From Fistulifera solaris (Eukaryota > Bacillariophyta > Bacillariophyceae > Naviculales > Stauroneidaceae), in NCBI GenBank assembly GCA_030295235.1, contig AP026140.1, positions 248,001 through 312,000 on the forward strand: a stretch of 64,000 bases of DNA. The letters are read 5' to 3'. Position numbers and translations under genes: made by a program. How positions within the stretch are numbered: the first letter of the stretch is position 1; the number at the start of each line of letters is the position of its first letter. Shown piece after piece: positions 4,183-54,725 of this stretch. The notes below the pieces were generated by a model, which saw only the letters and a program-made list of their open reading frames with translations, had not been told where the DNA came from and searched no databases.

Positions 4183-7100
4183 ATGGAGCCGGCCATCGAC
4201 GTCATGAGCAGAGCATTGCAGGGGAGACCATGGGGCGCGCTCCTTCCTGGAAAGAACGACTACTATTTATGCTTTAGATGTCACAGATACGTCCAATGCG
4301 AAGACGTACGGTTGCTGGAATTTTATTCATCAAGCGATGAACGAGATAGAGAGATATGAGCTTGCGAATGATCCTTTCACGCCATCGAGCTTGGTGGCTC
4401 ATGCGCGACTGCTTTCAACCATGGCGTTAAAAGTGGCTAGAAGATCGCCAGCCAAAGATAGGGCTATGGTTGCGACTTGCATATCAAATGATTCACACGG
4501 CAATCTTTCTCCTGAGCAGTCGCAATGGCTTTTGGATCTGAATTTCGAACTTCGAGAAATTGTTATGGGTCGTATTGCAGCAATGGCTTTTGATTTTAGT
4601 TTTCACCGGTCGAGTGTAGGTCGTCATGGGAACTCGTCGTTTGCGGATCATGTTGTGATGGATACATTTTGCGCTGTTTTGTCGGCGAATGCCGTGACGA
4701 GTGGACCTCACGCTATACGACACTTTTCGACGGAATGGATTATTCCTTCTTCGAGAAATCTTCCTCCATTTGCTCTCGCTTCCGTTGTCTTTCATTTGGC
4801 AATGGAAAGTCAAAGAAAGCTGGCTCCAGCAGGTACAAAGGACACGCTACAACAACTTTCCAGCCCAATTATTTGTATCGTTCTTATACCTATACTAGCG
4901 GCAACAATATCGGAAGATGAAGAGTTAAGTGCTTCTTCTCGAGATGCTGAACGCATAGCAACCAAATGCCTTTGCGCGCTGAAAGCATGGTGCAATGCAA
5001 CGGACTTGAGTCTTCCGCAGATCAGCCATGTCTGTTTAAAATTTGGCGTAAGTACATTTGTGTTCGCCTTTGATATTAAGTCTTGTTATCAATCTAACCA
5101 TGGTAGGCGATTTTATCAGTCCAAGATTGTTGACCTGCTTAGTGACATCATGTACTCAGATTCGGGTTTAGTCATTGATGCGCTCGCGGAGCTTATTGAG
5201 ATAGTTGTACCTCTCTCAGATGAGAAAGTCATGTCAGAAGGGAGAATGAGTCAGGTTCGACATATTCTGCAAGTTGATGATTTAGAATTTCGGAGCAAGT
5301 TTTCTCCTGAGCAACTTAAGCTGATAGAGTTTCGAGAAATGGGTGCCATTGTGAATGAGCTCGTCTCCGCCGTCAGCTTGCAGCGATTTCGTTTCGTCGA
5401 AAGGCAGAAGAACGGTACGCATAATTTACTTTCTATGAAATGTCGCCAAACGCCGCTCACGTTGCTGAATACGTATTTCAGATGAACACGAAGTATGCCG
5501 AAATTTGGCGAGAATTGCAGCAACCGTTTGTTCAACACACATCGATGTAATGACCAGAGAAGAATCCGTAGTGCTAGATAAGGGTGTGCTGACTCTTCTC
5601 TTAAAAGCAGCAGCCCATCCTTCTGTCAATGTTTGTGCCATAGTGTTACCTGTGCTGACAAAATGCATTTCAATAATGTCATTGCTCGGTCCGGAACTGC
5701 TGCCGGTTCTGCAAAGAAGGGCGATCATTCCTCATACTCTTACGAGCAACCTCCTTTCCTTTGCGGTACCTAGCTTCTGCGATATCAACTTTTCTGAATT
5801 TTGTAGATTCAGGGATGATGTTCTCAGGAAAGCACTAATTGCATGCTGGAATGCGAACCGTTCATATTACGTTGAGTCATGCGCCTCGGCTGTTGAAGAG
5901 TTCTGTTCGATTTCATCATCAATCGAAGTCTCTTTGCAATTGGAGGCTGCCTTATTTTGCATTGAAATCATCGGTCCTGAAGCTACACATGTCGCTGATG
6001 GCTTCCCTCATGGTGATCAGTTGTCACAGATCATTGCAGCTCTTGGTTTGAAGCCGCAAAGTCTTATGTTGAATCCGCTGACGCTCGCGAGAGCATATAG
6101 AATGATGAAGATGGTGAGTTACTTTTCTGTGCTTCTTCTCCACGGGAGTAAGTTCTCTAATTTTGCAAAATTAGTACTCGGAATGGTGTCTCGCGGCAGG
6201 AAAAGATTCGATCGGCTTTGAACTTTGTGTCGCTGGATTTATAAAGGCCTCAAGGAGCATCCAGCTGAGCAGTGACCTTGTCGAATATTCCCTCTCGGTA
6301 CCAACAGAAGCTGCATCGTGTCTGAAAAACTTTATTTCTGGCCATCCCTTGCATTATGCAAGTGACACATGTGCTGCAGCATTGCGTGGTAAGTTTCTCT
6401 CTAGAATGCGTCGCGTTCTAGAAGCTCGAGTCTCATTTCAATATTTTGAAAGCCTGTTGGGATGCTTCACAGCCCACAATCGAAAGAACAGACGCTTTCA
6501 GTACCGAATCTCGATTGACCCTGGGCGCTGGTTTAATGCAGATATTCCAGGTTATGCCGAGAGAGCATCAACCTAGACTTCTTGAAGAGTTAGTCACATC
6601 ATCGATTGCGCGGTTGAATCATTTAAGCCAAGTTCTTGCAAGTGTCGACAGAAACACCTTCTCGTCTACTCAAATGGACAATGTGGCTGACGACATAGTG
6701 TTACTCTCTGGGCTAACAAGAGAGTATCTGCTCTCAACATCAAGTGATAACGAGGACATGGCAGACGACCACAGGACGCCACCGCTACCGGACAGTGCGA
6801 CTGATGTTGTCATGGCATCTCATGTTGTATCGTTGATTCGAAACTCTCTTCCCGCTATTCTTTTTTTGGTAAAAATGTTTCTTCGTGATGAGGTACGTGT
6901 ATGCAATTAAGTCTGATACTCGACCAGATGCGTCTCAAAAGCATTTCAGACTGTGCATGTTGCGTTTAAAACTTTTATTTCAGATCTCGTTCCTTTCTCA
7001 TCAAAATGGGGCGACTCTAGCCTCCTGTTGGACTTTTTGTTGCTAATAGACGATCTTCGTCTTGCAAGTGAAGATCATTTTCATGAATGCAGTCTTATTT

Positions 7101-8025
7101 TCCACATTCTACAAGAAATCACAAAAGGATAGGAAACGATATTGAAAATCATTTCATCGGAATACAGTCCTCGCAACCCTTTTCTGAGATCAGTAGATCT
7201 TTTGAGAACAAGGTGGTCATTTGCATTGGGCTATTAAACGTAATTGAGTTCAGTGGCCAGAAGGCTCAAATTGATGGAAGCGAAACAACATTGGTTTCAT
7301 CAGCCCCCTTAATTGAAAAAAACTGAAAAAGTTGACGAGGAGAATGTGGTGCTCTTTTTGGATCTTTTGACGGTGCTGCTTCAGTCGTGCCCTTCTTTTA
7401 CCATTCGATTAAAGGCAGAGAAGGGAGGCGTAGAAAGTGGAGACCGAATTGCCAACATAGCTGTAGATGCAGCTGCCAAATCGATGACCGTAGACGACGC
7501 TGGCAGCGTAAAAAGCGCGGTTCGTTTTCTCTTGTGCCTGGTGAGTCGGACATTTTCTCGCCATTGTTCACTCCTTGATTTATGCATGACTTGCTAACAC
7601 TTCGAGTACAGTTGCGTTTAACTCAAGCTTCCGATGAAAATCTGGTCGCTTTTGCTACACAAGCATCAGCGCATGTTAGACGAAATACAGTCGCTGCTAT
7701 GCTAGCAGGAGCATGTGGCAAACTCGACGTTGCTTTGCTGCATGACGTCGCCGATTTATTGGTTTTAACCTTGAAATGTACACCGCTCGGGGAAATCGAA
7801 TCACACTTAGTTTCAGCTCTGCGACAAGATTTCTTCCTGTGCGGGGATGACGCCAAAGATGCAACGCTTTCCTTTTTTGCAAAGTGTGTGCTTCAAGGCT
7901 GGCCAGAGGATGGCGTGCAAAACTTTCTTAATGAATTGTGGGACATGCACCAGGCGGAAGATGACGATTCACTCCATAACAGCGATCTAGTCGCTCGTTT
8001 TGTCACCAAATACCAGACACCTTGA
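4183..8025 (+). CDS. Large alpha-solenoid (HEAT-like) protein, possibly an importin-beta/transportin relative
   Basis: About 1,150 residues of helix-rich sequence without transmembrane segments, typical of a HEAT/ARM solenoid. The N-terminus (MEPAIDVMSRALQ, then ARSFLE and NFIHQAMNEIERYE) has the helix pattern of an importin-beta N-terminal repeat, but the match is weak. Clear GT-AG introns lie at 5048-5106, 5415-5481, around 6115-6170, 6389-6450 and 7541-7611, and an intron near 6892-6949 is also likely. Frame breaks fit single-base errors at homopolymers: G4 at 4221-4224, T4 at 5111-5114, A4 at 7123-7126 and A7 at 7316-7322. The C-terminus at 8025 follows a leucine-rich helical region. If it is a karyopherin it would carry cargo through nuclear pores; other solenoid roles are equally open. 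Confidence 0.65.
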
Positions 8026-35162: not shown

Positions 35163-38100
35163 ATGTGGAACGGCAACAACAATCCGAACGATCATCGGAA
35201 TCGACATTACCCACCGCAGCCACCGCCAGGCTATCATTACCGTCAATCGCCTCCTACGTACCCCGATCCGCGATATCCCCCGCATCCTCCTCCTCCCTAC
35301 GGTTACGGTGGTCCTTATTGGCCTCCGCCGCATCATCCGCACGGTAGTGAACGCCCCCGGAGCGGCAGTCACGGAGAGAACGTGTATTACCCGGAAGTCC
35401 GGCACCGTTCCGGAGACAGAGAAGAAGATAGGTTTGTGCCCGTCGCACACCCGGATGATGACGAGGAGGTCGCGGATGTCGCCGTGAGTGAAGTAGCTCC
35501 CCGAGGAAAGCCGGAAGCCATGGCGCAAGCATTGGCGGCCGCAAAAATTGAGACAAAGCGTGAAGAAATTGCGGAAATGAAACGCAAAGAGGAGGAACGC
35601 ATGAAGTTTGACGACGACATGGAGGAAGATCCTGTCATGGACGTGGAAGTCGAGGCAGAACCCATTCCAGAAGAAGACGAAGATGACGCCATTGCCGAGC
35701 CAGTAGTTCAGTCATCGTCGTCGATCATCAAGAAACCATCGGAAACGAAAAGAAAAGTCCTACCCGCAAGAAGAAACCAAAGCCGCCGATGTCATCGTCG
35801 AGGTTTGGAAGGGGCCGGCTCAAATCTTTTGAGTCGCCCGGTGGATCCTGTTACCGAAGTGGAGTGGGAAAATTTGGATGCTTTGATGAATCAATTCTGC
35901 CGCGTTCCTTTGTTGGCAGAATTCAGTCGTCCTGTCTCGCTTTTACACCCAGAAGTAAGCATTTCGTAGGGAATGCAGCATTGTTGAGCGATTTACCGGA
36001 CTAACAACGACTTTTTCTGTTTATTGCAGCTTATTTCCACGTATTCAAAAATCGTCAAGCATCCATTGGATCTCGGCCATATATGCCGAGGCATACGTCG
36101 TCGGCAATACAAAAACCTTCGCGATATACGCCTAGACATGTGGCGCGTCTTTGCCAACTGCGTCAAGTATCATTCGCACCCGAACAACAAAGAGGCGGTC
36201 CCCTCCTTTGTTTCAATTGCCTTGCATTTGCGCGAATTCTTTAACAATTTGTGGAACGAACATATGCTACCCTCGGATCTTCCGGAGAACGCTTCTGACA
36301 CTATGAAAGAAATGTTTCAAACGAGACAAAAAGATCGCAAATCAATCATGGAAAGCTCGGGCGTGCTTTCCATTACTCCAAAGATCACCGGCGTTACGTC
36401 TCGTACAATCAAGAAATTCATCAAGGACGGTGGCCGGGTCGATGGGCTGGACAAAGATGCTGTCTTTGGGCCGGATGCAAAAGAAAAAGATAGAGATCTG
36501 GAAGTCGTCGTTGCGAATTTGACAAAGATCGGAGAAAAGGTGATGTCGTGGGATGAGGATTATACTCTTGAAAAATTTTACCAGGAGTTGAAAGCTGTCT
36601 ACACAGTTGATGTTCTGGAAGAGAATCCGGCTCTTCGCAATCGTATTGGCAACCGTATTACACGTATGTTTTGGAAATTGTTTTTGCCCTTGCACGAAGC
36701 AAATTCGAGAGGTGTGTCGCAGTCGAGTATCTGGGGCAACATCGCTGCGACTATCTGGGCCAGAGAAAGCAGTAAGAAACCATTTTGGCCGGCGATTTGC
36801 CTCGGAATTTTGGCTCCAGAAGACCAAAGAGAGTCGTGGCACGAAAGTATTACGCAGCGAAATGAAATGAGGCTCCCGGAGAAGCTTCGAGCGCCGTTGG
36901 AGGCGTCGCGAAACAAGTGTATCTTGGCACAACAGCGACAGCCCCTAAGTTACTTCATGGTTGAGTTTCTTGGAACCCACGAATTTATCTGGGTCCGCGA
37001 AACGGATATCATTGAAAACTTCGATGCTAGCAAAGACCCCAACAAAGATACTTCTTCTTCAAAGAAGAAGCGTGCGTCGAGAAGCGCAACGTCTAGTGTT
37101 ATTGGATCGAAGACTTACGCGACGGCCCTGGAGGAATGTACTTGGGCCATGGAAGAATACGAATCCGTGTTACAGGATTGTTACAATTACACAAGTGTTG
37201 GTGACACTGCCCAGGTCGATGAAGAAGAAGACGGCGATGATGTCAACTACAGCTACGCTGTGTTGGCACAGTCCGATGACGAAGCTGACGACGAAGATAC
37301 TCATGGATACGCTTATGATGATGCGACAATGTCCTTGTCGGATGTAGATGAAGCTAATTTCCTCTTGGAGCATGCAGGCTTACTAGACACTAGTTCCGAA
37401 GGGCGAAAGAATGCTAAAAAAGCGGGCACAGGCCATGAAGAAAAAGAATATCGAAAAGCACGGCGACACAAAGTCAAAGGGACGTAAAGATGTCAAATCA
37501 AAGAAAGACTCGAAACGAAAGGATGCCCAAAGGGCGAAAGACGAAAAAAAGCCGAGAAGCTCAGCGAGCAAAGGACTTGGACCGGGAGTTGAGGAAGGAA
37601 GAAAAGGAATTAGAAAAACGAAGAAAGAAGCGTATGCGAGAGCGAGAGAAGGCTCTTCGACTAGAGACCCGCAAAAATAAAAAGCGGAGGTCGAGTCTCG
37701 GTAATGAAGACGATGATCGCGGACTGACTCTCGATAAACGAGCCCGAGCGACGGCGATAGTAAAAGCGTATCTGACTCGGCTTGCGCAAGATGACGATTA
37801 TAAAAATCTTGGTATTGGTGGGGTAATGAACATCCCTGCGGTAATGATTGACTCCACTGGACTTCTCGGAATGGCACTCGCTTTTCGATCTGCTGCTGGC
37901 GAGATTCCTGTCCCCGATGATGGGGACGATTCGATGGCTAAATTGAAGCCCTGGGCTGCTGTTGACACGGAATCGCACAAAACAAGTGCTGAGCGTATTG
38001 AAGCTCTTCAGACCAAGATACGACTTCTAGAAGACCACATTGAGAAAAAGAGAATCAATATTAAGATACGAGAGGAGCTGACACAGGAAGCAATATCCAA

Positions 38101-40810: not shown

Positions 40811-42734
40811 ATGCCTTCTCCGCGTACGGCTGCTTCGTTCACAGGAAAGCGTGAAAAACGTGTCGAATTTTCTCCGTCGCTTGAATCGATCGACCAGGAG
40901 CAATCCGAGTCACCGCACCATTCGAGTGCCGTCCCATGGGATACCGAGACAGGTACGGACTGCTGTGCTCTCGGATCTAATTATTGAAATGTGTTCTCTC
41001 GTTTCTCAGTCTTTTTGTGTCTTTTGTTTAGACCACATGCTCTCGTATTTTCTCGGCGGAGAAATGGGACACGGCCCAACTCCCACATTCTCGACGGCCG
41101 ACTCCTCGAGCAAAAAATATTACGAAGACGAGGAGGAGGCACCTCCGACGACACCGGCTGTTCCTTATTTTTATGCGGGGGCTCATCGTCGCAACAATAA
41201 TAAAACCGAATCGTCGTTGCAACCCATGGCCGCTTCCTTGATTACCGGTGGACCCATGGTCCGACAACAAATATTGCGACAGTCCTCCTCGACGCACACG
41301 ATGGATTCCTTGGAAAATCCTTCACCGATTTCACCCGCTGCCTTGATTGGGAATGCACACGAAAATTTAATGTTACCGCACAGTGATGATATTTCTCCCC
41401 TCATTGCCTTTCAACGGCAGCAGATGACGTCTTCGGATGCGAAGCCCATGGCGTTTTCGCAAACGATGGGAAATCGACAAGAAAGAGTGATTCCGCCACG
41501 ACCTCAGAACGGAGAAGTAACCTATCAAGATCCGAAAAACACCGAGACGAGTCAACAACAGCAACAACAACAACACATGGCTTGGTTACAAGAGATTAAT
41601 GCCCGCGCTAAAATGGCGGGTCCGTCGTCCACGAGTACACAGTTTGTAGCACCGCCCATGCCGATGCAACCCATGATGGCGTATTTTCCTCATCCTCATT
41701 TAATGGCGCAACACCCGTACTTGTTTGCGGCCGCCATGGCGCAACAACAGCAACAACAAGACTCTACAACTCCGGTCGAAAGTGAGGAGAAACGAGTGAA
41801 GCGTTTGGAACGCAATCGAGAGAGTGCTCGGAAAAGCCGTCGGAGGAAGAAGGAACGTTTGGAGACGTTGGAAGCCAAGGTGAACCAATTGCACGAGCAA
41901 ATCGAGAACGAACGCAAGACATTGATTCATGTCATGATTGAAAATACCAAGTCGTGGAGATGTGCGGAAATGGAGAAAGGACAGGTACCGTCCGAGCAGG
42001 TGGTTCGTTACACCAGTCCCTTTAGTCCCCTCACTCGTGCGGTCACGGAGTTTCAATACAATCGGTTACGGCAAGTGACGCTTCCGGGGTATCACAAATT
42101 CTTGTTGTGGTGTGTTTCACGAGAAGATGCTTTTTACACGTCGGCTCGAGAACAGTATGTTAAGCGTGTGGGGAACTCGGGAGGTGCCAACCGCTCGTCG
42201 GCCAACAAGATTAGTTCCAAACAGATCGGGGAAGAGTTGTTCAATGCTGGTACAAAGGTAGAAGAGAAAGAAGACCGACAGTTTCCGGCATCGTCGTTTA
42301 CGGATGATTATGAGAAAACGTGGCCATTGATATGTTTCGAAATGAAATTCAGCGTTGATCAGGAAGAGAAATTCATGGCATGTCGGAAGAAAGCCCGCGA
42401 GATTCCCAATTTGGATTACATTCAGTCGGAGACGACCACAGCGGTCCGGACGGTCGAAAGCTTGAGCTCGGCGGTCGAATCGGTCAGTTACGCCGTGGGG
42501 AGACGTGAAGAAGCATCGTTGAATTCCATTTTGACTCCGGCACAGACGGCTGCCTATCAAGGGTGGCTAGCGCGAAACCGTAATAAGTGTCATCAAGCTT
42601 TCCACCGAGCGCAAGTGGATCCGTTGCCGGCAGCAGCCACCAGCGAGGCGGGTGTCATTCCAGCCAAGGATACCTCTCTGGTCGACATCTGCCGACGACT
42701 GAATGAGGTTCTTCGAATTTCTAAGCCGCAGTGA
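40811..42734 (+). CDS. bZIP transcription factor with conserved stramenopile C-terminal domain
   Basis: About 614 residues. The first exon (40811-40952) starts MPSPRTAASF; the 79-base intron (40953-41031) has GTACGG and TTTAG ends and joins in phase, which places the true start upstream of the open frame at 40851. The N-terminal half is disordered with Gln and Met/Pro runs. The basic region is KRLERNRESARKSRRRKK (Asn, Ala, Ser and Arg contacts present), followed by a leucine zipper of about four heptads. C-terminal to it is a helical domain: TEFQYNRLRQVTLPGYHKF, SREDAFYTSA and ILTPAQTAAYQGWLARNRNK. It resembles a domain common in diatom bZIPs. Target genes are unknown. Frame is intact. Confidence 0.92.
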
Positions 42735-43783: not shown

Positions 43784-44607
43784 TCTATAATTAACACATT
43801 GCCTTCCTGAGTTTATTATTCGATTTGAATTTTAGATGCTCTATGTCGCAACTTCGGGTCGAGTGAAATCGAAAACCCAGAGTTTTTCGTCTACTTACCG
43901 TATGGACGAGAAATGACATTGCTGGCGGTCGCTGCTGCCAATAGTGAGTACCCTCTTTTCTACACAACAATCTTGCAATTTCAAATAATTAGGGGAGCTA
44001 AAGGCCTTTCACGGAAATGTGTCGTCATTGCCAGCGCACGTACGACTGAACTAGTATGAATAACGTACGTGTCCGATGAGGAAAAGAGCCTCACAACTCT
44101 ATCAAGCGCACGTGCCTTTTGTGATAACAGCGTGGCTTTCGGCTTTCATTACATTGGTATAAGGTTTTGTTTAAAGTCTTAGAGTTAAGGTTAACGGATG
44201 ATTTGCCCCTCCACCGCAAGACCGCACGTTTCGATCTGCGATACAAGGTGCGAAATAGATTGTGTACTACGCTCCCTAAGTATAAATAACTTCATCATAG
44301 TAAAATCCATCCTAATTTTGAGGAGATTCATTGAGTACCTTTTTCTCAGTACTCCAATGTCATAGTATCCGTCCGAGCGATCGAACTTACTGGACGCTGC
44401 TTGTTAACAAACGATTGCTCTTGGACGATAGGCAGTTTTCTTATTACACCTCACAAAACATTAGCGAGGGATGTTGGAAGTCACAATTAGGAAACCAGAC
44501 GTTGCGATGCGTTCGGAGAGTGATGCGTTTCAGCCTTGTTGCCGGGGCGATATTCGCTCTTCGAGAACACAAATGCAACAAGCCAATCTCTCTACAAGGA
44601 AGTGAGC
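43784..44607. other. Divergent intergenic region
   Basis: 824 bases between the bHLH gene (minus) and the Pro-Val protein gene (plus). It holds GCGCACGTACGACTG near 44034 and GCGCACGTGCC near 44105, which include ACGTAC and CACGTG cores of the kind bZIP and bHLH factors bind. A 104-codon open frame (44331-44645) overlaps the downstream gene and is probably leader sequence. Confidence 0.45.
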
Positions 44608-47507
44608 ATGAAGTTCTTCCTTCCGACTCGACTAGCCACGGCTAGTCTTCTTCTCTCTTCTGCTGCAGCAGCTAGCGGAAAGGCCCATGATGAAGATAGC
44701 AGCTTTTGGAACCGATTTTTGCAAACAGATGGTGCTCAGAGTTTGACACCTGCGCCCACCACGCCTCGTACCCCCGCACCCACTTCTCCTCCGTCGGAGG
44801 CTCCCTCGCAAAGTGTTGGCTGTTTGGTCGCCGTGGAGCTCACTTGCGCTACCAGCTCGGGAGCATCCTGCGACACAATTGCACCTCCGCCGTCCTTCCA
44901 GTGCTCTGCCGGTGCCGACATTGACACGCTCACATTCGCTTACCAAGGAACGCCCTGCAACCCCAGCGGCAACTCTCAGGGAACCGAGGCTACATGCGTT
45001 GACAGTGCACCGTTGACCCCTGAAACGCAGGTCACCGTTGAATGCGTTGACGCTGCCAACGGATCGCCGATGACCGTCGAGCCCAACGTCGTGGATCCCA
45101 CCATTTTCGTCGTCACTGGCCCCGGTGGTGCAATCCTCCCTGAGAAGATTACTTGCACTATCTTCGCCGCTGCTGATGACACCCAGCTTCAGACCAACAC
45201 CATCGACACGGGTGTCAACGCCCCGCTCAACCTTCAAGACACTTTCGGTGCGCTTCAACTCTTGTCATGTGATGACCTCACATGCATCGAGACACTGGCG
45301 TACAACGTGAACATGGAGAACATCGGAACAGTCATTATGGACATCACGTTGGCCTCTTTCACTTTCAACGGAATCAACGAAGACTTTTTGCCTTTCATTC
45401 CCATTAACCCGCTTGAACCTGGTCAGTCAACTTCGGTTGATCTCAGACAGCTGATTGAGATCTGTGAGGGTGGCAGCTTCGCTGCTGCAGTCAGAGTTGA
45501 GGCTACTCCTCCTAACAACGACATTTGCCAAGATCAGCAGTCCTACGAGTTCAATGTGACTCCGCCTGTACCAGTGCCAGTCCCTGTTCCCGTTCCTGTG
45601 CCGGTGCCGGTGCCCGTTCCTGCACCTCTTCCTGTGCCTGTTCCTGTTCCAGTCCCTGTGCCGGTACCTGTGCCCGCTCCTTTGCCGGTTCCTGTCCCTG
45701 TGGTCACACCGGAACCAACGGTTCCTCGAACAGAGGCTCCCGTGCCGGTCCCTGTGCCGGTGCCGGTTCCCGTTCCCGTTCCCGTTCCTGTGCCCGTTCC
45801 GGTCCCAGTCCCAGTCCCTGTGCCGGTGCCCGCCCCTGTACCTGCTCCGCTCCCGTCGCCTACTCCGGACACCTCGGCCGCTCCTACCACAGAGTGCAAC
45901 CTCTTCGTCGCAGCCGAATGTACGATTCAGTCCGGTCAGTTCCAAGGCTTCACGTGCGAGTCCCCTGGTATTGGAATCGAACCGTGCCGTCAGCGTCCTA
46001 CTGGAGCTACCATGCTTTACAATGGTGGAGACTGCTCTCAGAGTGACAACCGTCAGTTCCTCAAGTTCACTTGTCAAGATTTCGGAGACGGTCCTCCCAC
46101 TGAATTGGGAACAGAGTCTTGGATTGTTGTCACGGACTTGACAGGCCAGGTTGTTTACCACGAAGACTTTGTCCCGGTCGGAGAGAACTACTTCCTCCGT
46201 ACTCCTCCCGACCAAGAACGCTTCGTGCCTGATCAGATCATCAACATTTACAGCTCGTCGGATGCCACCGAGGCTACCTTACTTCAAACCATGCAGTACC
46301 ACAGTTCGTGCTCTAGTAACCTGGAGCTCAAGAACCGTTTCGAGCAAGTCAGTTGGTTGAGTTCATCAATGAACTCCAGGGTAATGTCACCTGCTTCAAC
46401 GACGCCAACTTTGGATTTGATATCGTTGTCCCTGTTACCATTGATGGTGATGCCGCTGAGATCATCACGCTCACGGCGCAGACCAACTTTGCCGGACTTC
46501 TTGACTTGAGTGACCAGGTGGCTGGCCAAATCGTTCAACCTGGTGACACCATCTCTGCAAGTATCACCACCTCGTTCGATTTAAGTACGCGACAGAGATA
46601 CACCTTGTTGATTCAGGTTACGGCCTCGGCGATCCCCACCGGTACTATCTGCCAAGGAACCAACTTCACCGAGTTTTTGGCTGGTAACCCGCCTCCCATT
46701 GGAAGTACAACAGAGGCACCTACCCGAGGCCCGACGATCTCGCCCGCACCCACACCTGACCCAGAGACCACCGCCTGCAGCGTCGAGGGAGAAATCATTT
46801 GCCAGACTCTTGATGATCAAGGCCGCGTTGCTAGCTTCTGTGATGATGTCGGTGATCCTAGCGAGAGCGTGTGCGGTGGTGACTTGGAGGCAACTGCTCT
46901 TGGATTCCGCTACAATGGTGGAGCCGGTTACCCTGAGCAAATTTGGTTCACGTTGGCTGGAGGTCGCACTGGAACCGTTGTCAGTCAGCGCCTGTCGGTT
47001 GGCGAGCGCGCTTATGGAGAAGGTGACTTCCGAGGAGAAGCGTTCGTTATTGTGACTGAGGTGAACGCTGCCGGTACGGGCCCTGGTGACTTTATTGAGC
47101 AGTTCCAGTTTGATACGAGCTGCACTGAAGGCGAGGAAGTTCTACGCTTGACGGATATCTATGGATCTCTTGAGCTAACTGACTATCGCAACGCTCTCGG
47201 AGTTCGATCAAGTCTCAGCAACGTCCGCATGTCCTACTTCGTGCGCAACTTGTTGGGCATTGCGATGATTGCCGAGGATGCCTTTGTCGATAGCGACTTC
47301 CAGGAGCTTGTCTCCGACTACATTCCCGACCCGACTGAAATTGAATTGGGTCCGAGACAACGCACTATTGTGCACGAGGAAACTCGTCCCGTTGATTTCG
47401 GCGCCAAGTTCGCCAATGGCGAAACTCTTTCGTTCTTTATGAATGTGACTGGTCGTGGTGAAGCTAGCTCCTTGGAGTGCTTTGACGACTTGTCGTATTC
47501 GTTTTAG
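44608..47507 (+). CDS. Secreted modular protein with three Cys-rich domains and a long Pro-Val dipeptide repeat
   Basis: About 965 residues. A signal peptide ends SSAAAASG. A Thr/Pro/Ala linker leads to three related domains of ~200-250 residues, opening [23 protein letters not shown] and [12 protein letters not shown]. Each has a CxxP-like second Cys pair and an F/LxYNGG or FAYQG segment. Domains 1 and 2 are separated by a Pro-Val stretch (~45 dipeptides, 45568-45860) interrupted by PAPLP and a [12 protein letters not shown] insert. Domains 2 and 3 are separated by [16 protein letters not shown]. There is no transmembrane segment or GPI signal. A cell-wall, frustule-associated or extracellular-matrix role is inferred. 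One base appears missing near 46341 (T3). Confidence 0.85.
45568..45860 (+). repeat. Pro-Val-encoding hexanucleotide-like coding repeat
   Basis: CCNGTN repeats encode PVPVPV within the secreted protein. Third positions vary (CCTGTG, CCGGTG, CCCGTT, CCAGTC), so the protein repeat is kept while DNA identity decays, suggesting selection on the amino acids. The antisense strand is open here (Gly-Thr repeats) purely as a by-product. Confidence 0.85.
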
Positions 47508-48086: not shown

Positions 48087-51000
48087 ATGAACTTTGAAAC
48101 GAGCTCTTCCGTGAGCAGTTCCGGTTTTTCATCATCGAGCTTTCGCAGCCAGTCAACAACAAGCCCATCTTTCAAGGACGCGAAACCGAAAACAACAGGA
48201 AGTGTCGGAATTATGCTCGTTGGAATAGGAGGATACAATGGAACTACTCTCTTGGCGGGTATTATGGCGCATCGCTTGAATATTACGTGGCGAGGACCGT
48301 TCGGAGATATACGGACGCCGAACTACAACGGTTGCATCACGCAATTGAACATGAAAGGCGGCGGTGTTGGGTTTAAAGATCGTGTCAAAGGACTCGCGGA
48401 TGCTACTTCTGCTGCCGTCGGCGGTTGGGTACGTCGTTTCTGCATTGCTGGCCTTGTGACTTTTTCTTGTCGGAACTCACGCAATTGTGTCAGGATATTC
48501 GACCCACCAAATGTGGAGATGCTCTTCTAGAACAACAAATATTAGACTACGATTTGGTGCGGCAAGTACAGGACGACCTTAACAAAATCAATATCTTCAA
48601 GGGGGCTTACGACAGTCGCTTCATCGGTCCTTCGCAACACGCCACCGCGACACACATTCTCACCGACTTTGAAGCCCCGAACGCATCGGAAACATTGAAA
48701 TGCATACGAGCTGATATTCGATACTTTAAATGGAAAAATGGTGTAGTAGGTCATACAACAGTCATCTGGAGTGCCAGCGTGGAGCCCAACAGTGAATTGG
48801 TGGGAACCTGGAAATCGGCCGATGAATTGCTCGCGGCGTTTGAACAAAGTGAATCCCAGCGCGGTGGACCCATTCCGCCCAGTCTTATCTACGCTACCGC
48901 CGCATTACTCGAAGGATGTTCTTTCATCAATGGTGGTTCGCAGAATACATTGGGTTGTCCTGGTCTTATGGATTTGGCACGGCAGCAACAGGGTGTTTAC
49001 TGCCTGGGAACAGATTTCAAAGCGGGACAGACAAAGTTCAAGACGGCGGCAGTGGAATATTTACGAACCATGGGATTGACTCCATTAGTCATAGCCAGTT
49101 CGAATCATTTAGGCAATAATGACATGCGGAACTTGGCTTCGGCCCCGGATACTTCGAAGGCTAAGCTGCGTGTCAAGCACGATATATTTGCTCCTTGGGA
49201 AGAAAACATTGATCATAAAGTCAGTATTATGTATACGGAGCTTATCAATGATGAAAAACGAGACTTTGTCGAATATACCAGCGCTGGATTTTTGGGGCAA
49301 CTTCACACCATGGTGACTTACACACGGGCGTCGGATAGCGTTTTGTGCGTTCCTTTGATTCTTGACGGTGCTGTCTGGTGTGATTTCTTTTCTCGGTGCA
49401 GTTGGCCTTACGAAAAAGTCGCCAAGGCATTAGCGTATCTCTTTAAGGTACCAGAAGGTGCAGCGACGGGTGCCGATCCCGGGTTTTTCGCGCAAATGCG
49501 AGAGCTCGACGCACAAGCTATGGCAGCAAACGAGAGTCGCGGTTCCGGTAAAGACGCTGGTAAGCGGGTTCGTATCATTACAAATGAAAAGGCAAAGACG
49601 GAGTGGGCGGTCCCTGAAGGAGGTGTTATTTGTGCCGGCCTAGCTTGCGTAGATATGCAACTAAACAACGCGACGGGGGGTGACGGCGGAGAAGGAATTG
49701 AGTCATTTCAAGGCGAAAAGAGTATTGGTGGTGGAAGCGTCAGTATGGCTTGCAAAACGTTGGCACGTCTTTGTCATGGTGAAGCACAGGATTCAGTGCA
49801 CGCTCAGACTCCGGCAGTACTTTCAAACATTGTTCCGATTTGCAAGATTGGTATGGATGGTACTGGAGACAAGTTGCTGAATTTGTTAGAGGCAACCGGT
49901 GAAACATGTCGGAATGTGAATGTGCGGCATTTGAAAAACAATCGCGACCCTGAAGGCAGAACTGCTTTGTCTGTCTTGCCTATCTATCGTGACGGTCGAC
50001 GCGGATGCTTCTTTGATGCGGCTTCAAACGTAACATTCTCAGCAAAGGAAATCATCTCGGACCTCAAGTCCTTGAGAAATGGAGAAAATGCGACATATGG
50101 CGCATTTCTCTTCGGCTATCCTCATTTACTTCCCGAACTTCAAGGTCAAGCACTGGCGCAAGTTTTAATTGAAGCTCGCAATGTTCTGGTGAACGGAGGA
50201 ATATGCGCTGTCGACTTAAACGGTGTACCTGAAGTCTTGTTCCAGCGAGACAAAAGAAGCGGTTTACGTGCTGATATGAAAAGTGACCCCGTTATCGGGG
50301 CCGCTTTGCAGCACACAGACATACTTCACATGAATGTAAGTTGGTATTTCTGGAATGCTAATGGCGTCCAACAAAAGAGAACCTGTACTCACGGTTTTCA
50401 ACTACAGGAAGAAGAATTGTGTCTGCTTACCGGTTGTATAATGACAGGAAATACCGTTCAGGACGATGGAACAATTCGACAAGCAGTCAAATTGTTTTTG
50501 GACGCAGGAGTAGGAATTGTTGTGGTGACCCGAGGCAAACTGGGAAGCGTCGTGTATTGCAATAGTAAACTGCGCCCCACTCTCCCGGCATCGTGGGAGG
50601 GTGGCTCTGTAGCCACACCTGCATCAATGTTGGCGAGAGGGACGATGATTAACTCCAACGGAGCTGGAGATGCGTTCACTGCAGGATTCTTGTTGGCGGC
50701 TATGCTCCGACACACTGGTGTCGATGTAAAGGACGACGCGGAAATGAGTAGTCCATCGTCGCGAGGAACTCCCACAAAAAGTCCGGCGAAAAAGCAACTA
50801 ACTCCGTATGCCTTATACATGCAAGAAAATTACCTTACTTTGAAAACGCAACTTCAAGGAGATAAGAAAGCAATATTTTCCAAATGCCATGAATTGTGGG
50901 AAAATGAATCGCCTGCTGTCAAGGCAATGTACGAACGTCGTGCCTCCGAGGAGAATAATACAGCGACCCAAACTGAGGATGTGAATTCTTCCTTTGACTC

Positions 51001-51184
51001 GAGCCAAATGATGACCGACTCAATCAAAGAACGCACTTTGTCACTGGAATCTGCCGCTACATTAGCCACTCTCATCGCCGCGCGCCACATTGATGTTTCC
51101 ACTCGAGATGACTTGCATCTGGATTTGAACACTTTACTCGAACATTGTCTGTTATTACCCAACGATGGGCTCGAAGAAATTTAA
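48087..51184 (+). CDS. Three-domain fusion: myo-inositol-3-phosphate synthase, PfkB-family kinase, HMG box
   Basis: 986 residues from three exons (48087-48428, 48494-50335, 50408-51184), all in phase and with no frame errors. Residues ~30-460 are an inositol-3-phosphate synthase: [20 protein letters not shown] binds [52 protein letters not shown] and DEYTS-like [10 protein letters not shown] follow. It would turn glucose-6-phosphate into Ins(3)P. Residues ~490 to the end are a PfkB/ribokinase-type sugar kinase: [31 protein letters not shown] and the catalytic [17 protein letters not shown] complete HMG box ([11 protein letters not shown] ... [17 protein letters not shown], residues ~858-912) sits inside the kinase, before its last helices. 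The single exon spanning synthase and kinase shows the fusion directly. Kinase substrate is unknown. Confidence 0.93.
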
Positions 51185-53179: not shown

Positions 53180-54725
53180 ATGAGTTTACTTTTCGCAATA
53201 GCGGCCTTTGTGACGACTACCGTCGTTGCGGCGGCCCCGTACACGGCGTACCCGGTCTATCCGCCCTACTGTTCGACTCCGGAACAAATGCAACAACGTG
53301 GGGTTCCTCCCTTACAGCAAGGTAGTAGTTACGGTGCCTCACAGTTGCGGCATGTCACCGCGGTCATTCGACACGGGGCACGGACTCCGTGGGCCGGCAA
53401 TTTGCCCTGTTGGGCCGATTTTGATCCACAACCGTGGAATTGTGAATTGCAAACGACCATCACACCGGAAGTGTCGGCGGCGTGGTTTCGCAAACAATAC
53501 GATGCTCTGCAATCTCCCGAATATAATTTGACCAACGAGTTAATCGGAGGAACCTGTCAATTGGGACAATTGTTGGAACTGGGAGTCGTGCAAGAACTCT
53601 GGAATGGAGAACAGTTGCGGGATGCCTACTTTGATACTGCTTCTCCCAACATGCTGCTCAGCCCCAACAAGCCGTGGGAATCTTTGTCTTATCGAGCCGA
53701 CGATGAACAACGGACACTCATGTCGGGACGCGTCCTCTTGAAGGGATTGTTTGGGAATGAAGTGACAGCACCATTAACAATTCCGATGCATACGGCCGAT
53801 TATGAACGAGACGTCGTGGGGGAAAATGAAAATCTGTGTCCGCGATTGACGCAATTGCGGGAATTGTTTTATGGGACGGACGAATTCCGTCAATTCAATG
53901 CATCGGCCGAAGCACAACAATTGCGTGACTTTCAACGGCGTCAACTGCATACGGACCACGATCTGGAATTGGATTGTTTCATGACGACCATTTGTACCGA
54001 TCGTACCTTACCCGATGCCATTAACGATTATGCCGGAGAAGAGCAAACGGAAAGTATGTTTTTGCGTCTCGTCAACTTTTATATACGACAATATACCAGT
54101 TTTGCCATGGCCAATGATGCGGAATACAGCAAGTTGGCGATGGGTCCTTTAATGGGCGGAAATTATGGACAACGTCGATCGTGTCATTGCGGAAAATGGC
54201 ACAGCCTACCCACGCTTGGCGCTGTTCAGTGGACATGATACGACCATTATTGGTCTCCTGGCGAGTCTATCAAAAGTCTACGATGGCTCGTGGCCTCCGT
54301 ACGCCAGTAAATTGCTGTTGGAAATTCACGAAATTGATCTGGACGGTCGAAAAGATAAAGCATTGTACACGACGGGGTATGGATTTCGATTGATTTACAA
54401 TGGTCAAGTGTTGACCGACCAAGTGGAAGGATGTCCCAAAGACACTCACATTTGTGATGTTTCTGTCCTGAAACGTCATTTGAATTTCCCGTTACGGGAT
54501 CGCGATTGCTCACTATTGGATATTCCGACAACGACGACCGCCTCCGGTGTCGCGCAAGTCTTTGATTTGTTCTTGTCACCCTCGGGCTTTGGCGTCTTTG
54601 TGGTGGTTGTACTGAGTAGTATGGCCGTGGGCAGTGTCCTCATGTTTGTGTTGTTATCGAAACTGCAACCCCAATTGATTCATCGAAGATCGTACGGAGC
54701 AGCCTCTCAAGAGAATCCGGAATGA
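53180..54725 (+). CDS. Membrane-anchored histidine acid phosphatase (PXYLP1-like)
   Basis: Phosphatase of branch 2 of the histidine phosphatase superfamily, about 514 residues. A signal peptide (residues 1-18) leads to the catalytic motif VIRHGARTPW with the phospho-accepting His and two Arg. The C-terminal proton-donor motif is LFSGHDTTIIGLLAS. The last 60 residues hold one membrane helix (FGVFVVVVLSSMAVGSVLMF) and a short cytosolic tail, so the enzyme faces the lumen or outside. Substrates in the family include phosphoxylose, lysophosphatidate and general phosphomonoesters; this one is unknown. One base too many near 54155-54165 splits PLM from AEIMDNVDRVIAENG. Confidence 0.9.

Follow-up and report, generated by a model that had tools for sequence, protein, structure and literature searches.

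Does a single diatom gene encode both an inositol-3-phosphate synthase (MIPS; Ino1/ISYNA1) and a PfkB-family kinase and, if so, what would such a protein do? The question is raised by a stretch of 64,000 nucleotides from Fistulifera solaris (contig AP026140.1, positions 248,001 to 312,000 of the forward strand; hereafter, the window), in which a preliminary description made from the letters alone had placed a fusion of these two enzymes. We found that the gene occupies window positions 48087-51184 on the plus strand, from an ATG at 48087 to the end of the stop codon at 51184, and that its three exons encode a protein of 986 amino acids. The MIPS-PfkB fusion is real and far beyond chance: the protein comes from one long open frame (935 codons are open in the frame 48377-51184), and a second copy with the same architecture is found on another contig of the same genome, C20.

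Pfam searches with the spliced protein placed NAD_binding_5 (PF07994) at amino acids 40-453 (199.4 bits, cut-off 25), Inos-1-P_synth (PF01658) at 292-396 (70.9 bits, cut-off 27) and PfkB (PF00294) at 512-826 (45.0 bits, cut-off 25.8). The modules thus follow one another as a MIPS core (amino acids 40-453), a linker and a PfkB kinase (491-986), the last of which carries an HMG-box-like insert. The C20 copy contains the same four Pfam families, with 200.8 bits for NAD_binding_5 and 70.7 bits for Inos-1-P_synth. Both synthase families followed by PfkB, all above their cut-offs, is the succession that the preliminary description had predicted, and its reservation that the kinase part might fail a PfkB profile is answered by the score of 45.0 bits. 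Its coordinates were exact to the base, and the motifs that it quoted were located at 48222 (GIGGYNG), 49106 (HLGNNDM), 49631 (CAGLACVDM) and 50651 (NSNGAGDAF). Overall, that interpretation survives in part: the single-frame fusion stands, being kept in both homoeologous copies with a kinase part that passes its profile, but the claim of a “full” MIPS is too strong, although both MIPS families score above their cut-offs. The Rossmann fold is where the fused MIPS begins; in the stand-alone MIPS of the same genome, about 60 further amino acids follow the point at which its alignment with the fused half ends (LKAP / FKVP). The third, HMG-box-like module was absent from the preliminary description.

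The gene structure is supported by comparison of the two copies (Table 1). In the window, the second intron is open throughout, and we considered whether it is retained as coding sequence; this was rejected, as the corresponding 74 nucleotides of the C20 copy keep the frame only by splicing. Because this length is not a multiple of three and the frame changes across it, the HMG-box-like segment and kinase tail of the C20 copy are joined to the rest of the protein only via splicing, which supports the second intron. A search of the window against Rfam at gathering scores gave no match.

Table 1. Features of the fusion gene in window coordinates; amino acid numbers refer to the spliced protein.
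Feature	Start	End	Strand	Remarks
Exon 1	48087	48428	+	N-terminal tail, start of MIPS Rossmann fold, GIGGYNG; start codon and frame kept in C20 copy
Intron 1	48429	48493	+	65 nucleotides, GT..AG; 80 in C20 copy
Exon 2	48494	50335	+	Remaining MIPS, linker, first part of PfkB kinase
Intron 2	50336	50407	+	72 nucleotides, GT..AG, open here; 74 in C20 copy
Exon 3	50408	51184	+	Kinase catalytic motif, HMG-box-like insert, kinase tail, stop
MIPS core	48204	49510	+	Amino acids 40-453, split by intron 1; PF07994, PF01658; PDB 9m53, 1vko, 9f2k, 1jkf, 7nwr
KLRVK, possible K-x-x-x-K counterpart	49163	49177	+	Amino acids 338-342, in shortened flap; register by eye
Interdomain linker	49511	49621	+	Amino acids 454-490 (37); no stop or frameshift in either copy
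PfkB kinase, main part	49622	50719	+	Amino acids 491-832, split by intron 2; VDM, GG, NxxE, GAGD; PF00294
NSNGAGDAF, PfkB catalytic motif	50651	50677	+	Motif in translation
HMG-box-like segment	50786	50962	+	Amino acids 855-913, inside kinase domain; PF00505
C-terminal kinase tail	51035	51181	+	Amino acids 938-986, downstream of insert; shuffled-tail test

It has been previously reported that Fistulifera solaris carries 42 pairs of homoeologous chromosomes (PMC5935921; this and the other papers cited here are drawn on for the parts of their text available to us). In the genome that contains the window (51.7 Mb in 61 contigs), PfkB and MIPS matches lie, by eye, mostly in pairs on neighbouring-numbered contigs. 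The C20 partner of the fusion encodes 993 amino acids that are 94% identical to those in the window, its DNA is 87% identical, and its introns measure 80 and 74 nucleotides. When the two copies were compared by Nei-Gojobori counting over 986 aligned codons, 926 of which encode the same residue in both, the ratio of nonsynonymous to synonymous rates (dN/dS) was 0.048 over the MIPS half (amino acids 38-455; 84.5 synonymous and 17.5 nonsynonymous changes), 0.137 over the main part of the kinase (491-833; 62.5 and 31.5), 0 over the HMG-box-like segment (855-910; 12 and 0) and 0.030 over the kinase tail (9 and 1). The stretches on either side of the HMG-box-like segment were looser (0.37 and 0.20), as was the linker (0.62, from 6 changes only). 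Both copies thus keep the arrangement under strong purifying selection. A multidomain protein that works should show this combination of constrained modules and drifting joints; judged by these substitution counts, the fusion is functional in the evolutionary sense.

The most surprising part of this protein is the insert in its kinase. The HMG_box match (PF00505, cut-off 25.4) at amino acids 856-913 scored 22.5 bits in the whole protein, 26.8 bits when a 107-amino-acid segment was searched and 26.9 bits on DNA; the C20 copy scored 23.8 bits in the whole protein and 29.0 bits on DNA. The match covers profile positions 2-60 of 69 and leaves the end of the box unmatched, and the genome as a whole has many HMG boxes (109 matches). 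With both whole proteins below the cut-off, the assignment is marginal on profile score alone. Three comparisons place the insert, of about 100 amino acids, within the predicted PfkB fold, between GAGDAF and the last kinase segment. PfkB scored 52.8 bits and reached profile position 287 when the HMG-box-like stretch was taken out, versus 49.3 bits and position 268 when the protein was cut before the insert. A small profile built from several kinase C-termini gave 27.1 bits for the core with its real tail and 22.6 bits for the core alone, a score that none of 200 shuffled tails brought up to the real one. In addition, in a PDB profile search, the adenosine kinases 3vas, 3vaq and 3uq6 aligned across the excision point (59 positions). 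Any explanation of the fusion must give this insert a place.

We consider a specialised inositol-phosphate enzyme to be the most likely role of the fusion, a tentative choice that we hold with less than even confidence. The MIPS half would bind NAD and glucose-6-phosphate and would probably still form inositol-3-phosphate, and the kinase half would phosphorylate a polyol. The likeliest substrate would be either free inositol, from which salvage would yield inositol-3-phosphate by another route, or an inositol phosphate, whose phosphorylation would lead on toward soluble inositol polyphosphates. The HMG-box-like module may serve to anchor the enzyme, whether on chromatin or on a partner, and an orthodox MIPS encoded elsewhere would supply bulk inositol, leaving the fused copy for a specialised pool. 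Substrate channelling of inositol between the halves is a plausible hypothesis for such an arrangement.

Whether the MIPS half is still a synthase is the first point on which this depends. Its core is, by sequence, of eukaryotic type but very divergent. The best-matching structures were 9m53, 1vko, 9f2k and 1jkf, which we take to be from human, worm, a further eukaryote and yeast, respectively; identity was 37.3% to human, 35.4% to the genome's own stand-alone MIPS, 35.2% to 9f2k, 34.7% to worm and 34.5% to yeast, and 28-32% to prokaryotic and viral-contig rows. A search for MIPS relatives from a five-row alignment confirmed 576 prokaryotic loci, of which 80 were listed, along with one viral-contig locus; the 20-row tree included 11 of these 80 and the viral-contig locus, and the closest to the fused MIPS among the relatives placed in it was 32% identical. 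The fused MIPS was placed with the eukaryotes (100/100), where it branches outside the other five with 2.94 changes per site; the grouping of those five rows received 82/91 only, and the tree program gave a long-branch warning, so that the exact place of the fused MIPS is unsure. The stand-alone MIPS lies on C13, with a partner on C14, and the C13 copy is orthodox, being 66% identical to human MIPS and scoring 442 bits for NAD_binding_5 versus 199 in the fusion.

This long branch and the redundant orthodox MIPS favour a second explanation, in which the MIPS half has become a regulatory domain that binds a ligand (glucose-6-phosphate/NAD or an inositol phosphate) and controls the kinase, while the orthodox enzyme makes inositol. 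Aspartate D320 of yeast and the C-terminal lysine are important for MIPS catalysis, and Ser323 is probably required in the substrate site. The equivalent of Ser323 is an alanine (Ala291) in the phmmer alignment of the fused MIPS, which also favours a regulatory domain, but the alignments show equivalents of D320, K412 and D438 of yeast, as well as a lysine aligned with the C-terminal lysine of 1vko. K412 and D438 have been reported to be important for MIPS (PMC5614600), and the very low dN/dS over the whole half further argues against a loss of catalysis.

The flap, whose folding gates the active site of MIPS (PMC11348189), can be read both ways. It is about 9-12 amino acids shorter in the fused protein (a hand count on the alignment), and its (S/T)KExSK stretch, present in 8 of the 8 other rows displayed, is altered. 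Both lysines of this pentapeptide are 100% conserved among the representatives aligned in PMC5614600, where rice MIPS retained about 7% of its activity when KEISK was deleted, about 14% after a double Lys-to-Ala change and about 70% when the first lysine alone was deleted. An imperfect pentapeptide need not be dead, given this last value. By eye, a literal K-x-x-x-K (KLRVK, with K338 and K342) follows five residues after the conserved SAP, which is also the spacing in human, in yeast and in the stand-alone MIPS of this genome. The alignments nevertheless differ in the lysines that they pair with K369 and K373: K338 was paired with K373 in all eight (three HMM profiles and five MAFFT settings), and K369 received a lysine partner (K336) in the eukaryote profile only and none in the other seven, while phmmer equated K336 and K338 with K369 and K373 of yeast and K338 with the K369 position of the human protein. 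That the fused MIPS acts as a normal synthase is unproven, because the flap is shortened and the cell has an orthodox MIPS as well; we nevertheless regard a purely regulatory MIPS half as somewhat unlikely, if a serious candidate.

The second point is the substrate of the kinase. The PfkB/ribokinase family includes myo-inositol kinases and adenosine kinase. The fused kinase retains the substrate aspartate D501 (in VDM), G526-G527, NxxE and G813-D816 (in NGAGDAF); D501, GG and GAGD presumably play their usual PfkB roles, and we take NSNGAGDAF to hold the general-base aspartate. Sequence comparison gives little guidance beyond the family. Against ten other PfkBs, the fused kinase shows 16-21% identity, and its placement in their tree, which has long branches, is unsettled; all NCBIfam matches were far below cut-off, the best being 5-dehydro-2-deoxygluconokinase (35.2 bits, cut-off 300). 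A two-row kinase profile matched 11 PDB entries up to E 0.1, nine of them adenosine kinases, which were also the best, if weak, matches (E 7e-4 or worse). The entries 3w4s, 4xf6 and 4xf7, which we take to be the archaeal myo-inositol 3-kinase TK2285, were not among these 11, and no specific sequence relation of the fused kinase to a known inositol kinase was found in this PDB profile comparison. PfkB-family inositol kinases have been described in plants (PMC4765147).

The adenosine kinase matches, together with the low identities and the unsettled tree placement, lend themselves to a third explanation, namely that each half is an active enzyme, with the kinase using a nucleoside or sugar from outside the inositol pathway, so that the fusion would serve co-regulation rather than consecutive steps. 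A separate PfkB in the genome (L001), 20% identical to the fused kinase, already has an adenosine-kinase-like C-terminus by eye, so that a second adenosine kinase is not needed; moreover, the three enzyme fusions described in the diatom Phaeodactylum tricornutum all join consecutive steps (PMC2173943). We judge a kinase substrate outside the inositol pathway unlikely, though it too is a serious candidate.

Pairing of the two families outside this genome offers a single independent precedent. A PfkB gene adjoined MIPS in 1 of the 81 listed MIPS loci, many of which have short flanks: in locus L055 (Saprospiraceae; 4989-7133) it starts right after the MIPS stop, among neighbours that are lipid-synthesis-like as labelled by eye. 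A looser PfkB motif scan of the 81 loci returned 19 open reading frames, of which only that of L055 was judged to be a PfkB, and a stricter pattern returned none. The PDB matches of the L055 kinase were led by 3kd6 (6.1e-15), followed by 3w4s/4xf6/4xf7 (1.4e-12). It has three relatives, found with itself in 4 of 149 sampled genomes, and all three adjoin solute-symporter frames (Pfam SSF in the two scanned, by eye in the third), as might be expected if the kinase acts on a polyol taken up from outside; their short flanks contain no MIPS motif. The L055 kinase shows no specific likeness to the fused kinase (24% identity over 108 amino acids; 17% in the PfkB tree alignment). Patterns drawn from two near-identical rows, and hence weak, gave 63 matches to the whole fusion in viral contigs and 67 to the fused kinase in genome contigs, none of which was confirmed. 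The viral-contig MIPS mentioned above (L100, 5001-6188, on a contig filed as viral in IMG/VR) is 26% identical to the fused MIPS and forms a long branch among prokaryotic MIPS.

Taken together, several of these observations weigh against a specialised inositol-phosphate enzyme: the marginal HMG-box score, the alanine in place of Ser323, the short flap and its ambiguous lysines, the low identities of the kinase and the adenosine kinases among its matches, and the rarity of the pairing in prokaryotes, where the kinase concerned resembles the fused one in no specific way and its three relatives have no MIPS motif in their short flanks. We still prefer a specialised inositol-phosphate enzyme to the two functional alternatives. 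A bolder version of it, which we think improbable, would be a chromatin-associated enzyme: working at DNA, its fused synthase and kinase would turn glucose-6-phosphate (and free inositol) into soluble inositol phosphates, and the HMG-box-like insert would either tether it there or act as a switch that couples kinase activity to DNA binding, so that carbon status would be linked to transcription in diatoms. Finally, the linker, as the least constrained part, might suggest that the locus encodes no single protein and is a pair of adjacent genes, a pseudogene or a product of misassembly, but this is almost certainly wrong: the linker frame is open, without stop or frameshift, in two copies 87% identical in DNA, strong purifying selection acts on both sides of it within the continuous 935-codon frame, and misassembly or two genes is rejected in view of a C20 copy that shares the architecture and the pattern of selection.

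Several other genes were seen around the fusion and elsewhere in the genome. Upstream on the plus strand lie a bromodomain and PWWP protein (window 36024-37484), a bZIP protein (40851-42731) and a DUF7467 protein (44524-47504) with a long PV repeat, whose coding sequence passes from one frame to a second, overlapping one near 46.3-46.5 kb, perhaps through an unspliced intron or a frameshift. About 2 kb downstream is a His_Phos_2 histidine phosphatase gene (53180-54235, plus strand; 53.9 bits), of a family that includes phytases, and an RHGARTP-type frame also lies downstream of the C20 copy of the fusion. Another PfkB fusion is encoded on C32 (L007), where, within a 741-amino-acid frame, a PfkB of ribokinase type (113.9 bits) precedes a barrel resembling xylose isomerase (AP_endonuc_2, 73.8 bits); alongside it, C33 has a 770-amino-acid frame with PfkB matches.

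How inositol enters the inositol phosphates by the cytosolic, lipid-independent route is poorly understood for many eukaryotes, and knowledge of inositol kinases is patchy (PMC8024741, on plants, Dictyostelium and animals). A conserved synthase-kinase fusion would indicate a candidate enzyme and substrate for this entry in diatoms, and, through the HMG-box-like insert in its enzyme fold, central metabolism would be physically connected with chromatin in an unusual way. Inositol phosphate synthase genes were noted in two diatoms by Kroth and colleagues (PMC2173943). We found no report of a MIPS-PfkB fusion in the literature searched, which lacks most subscription papers, and the available parts of PMC2173943, PMC8024741, PMC4765147 and PMC4067076 do not mention one. 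An existing database annotation is quite possible; the fusion of these known families has probably not been described so far.

How does the protein compare with known systems? Like Ino1/ISYNA1, it has Rossmann and catalytic domains and several catalytic residues and falls on the eukaryotic side of the tree; it differs in its identity of 34-37% to five other eukaryotic MIPS, its short flap, the lack of the canonical C-terminal extension and the attached kinase. Like PfkB/ribokinase family members, it has the substrate Asp, GG, NxxE and GAGD and scores above the Pfam cut-off, but it is assigned to no subfamily and carries the HMG-box-like insert, a segment that, unlike an HMG box, sits inside an enzyme domain. 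In L055, too, MIPS is directly followed by PfkB, but as separate bacterial genes and with a kinase that is not specifically related. In P. tricornutum, the fusions TIM-GAPC3, UGP/PGM and G6PDH/6PGDH each catalyse consecutive reactions (PMC2173943), whereas consecutive steps are not established for the MIPS-PfkB fusion; in both cases, nevertheless, a short linker connects two metabolic enzymes.

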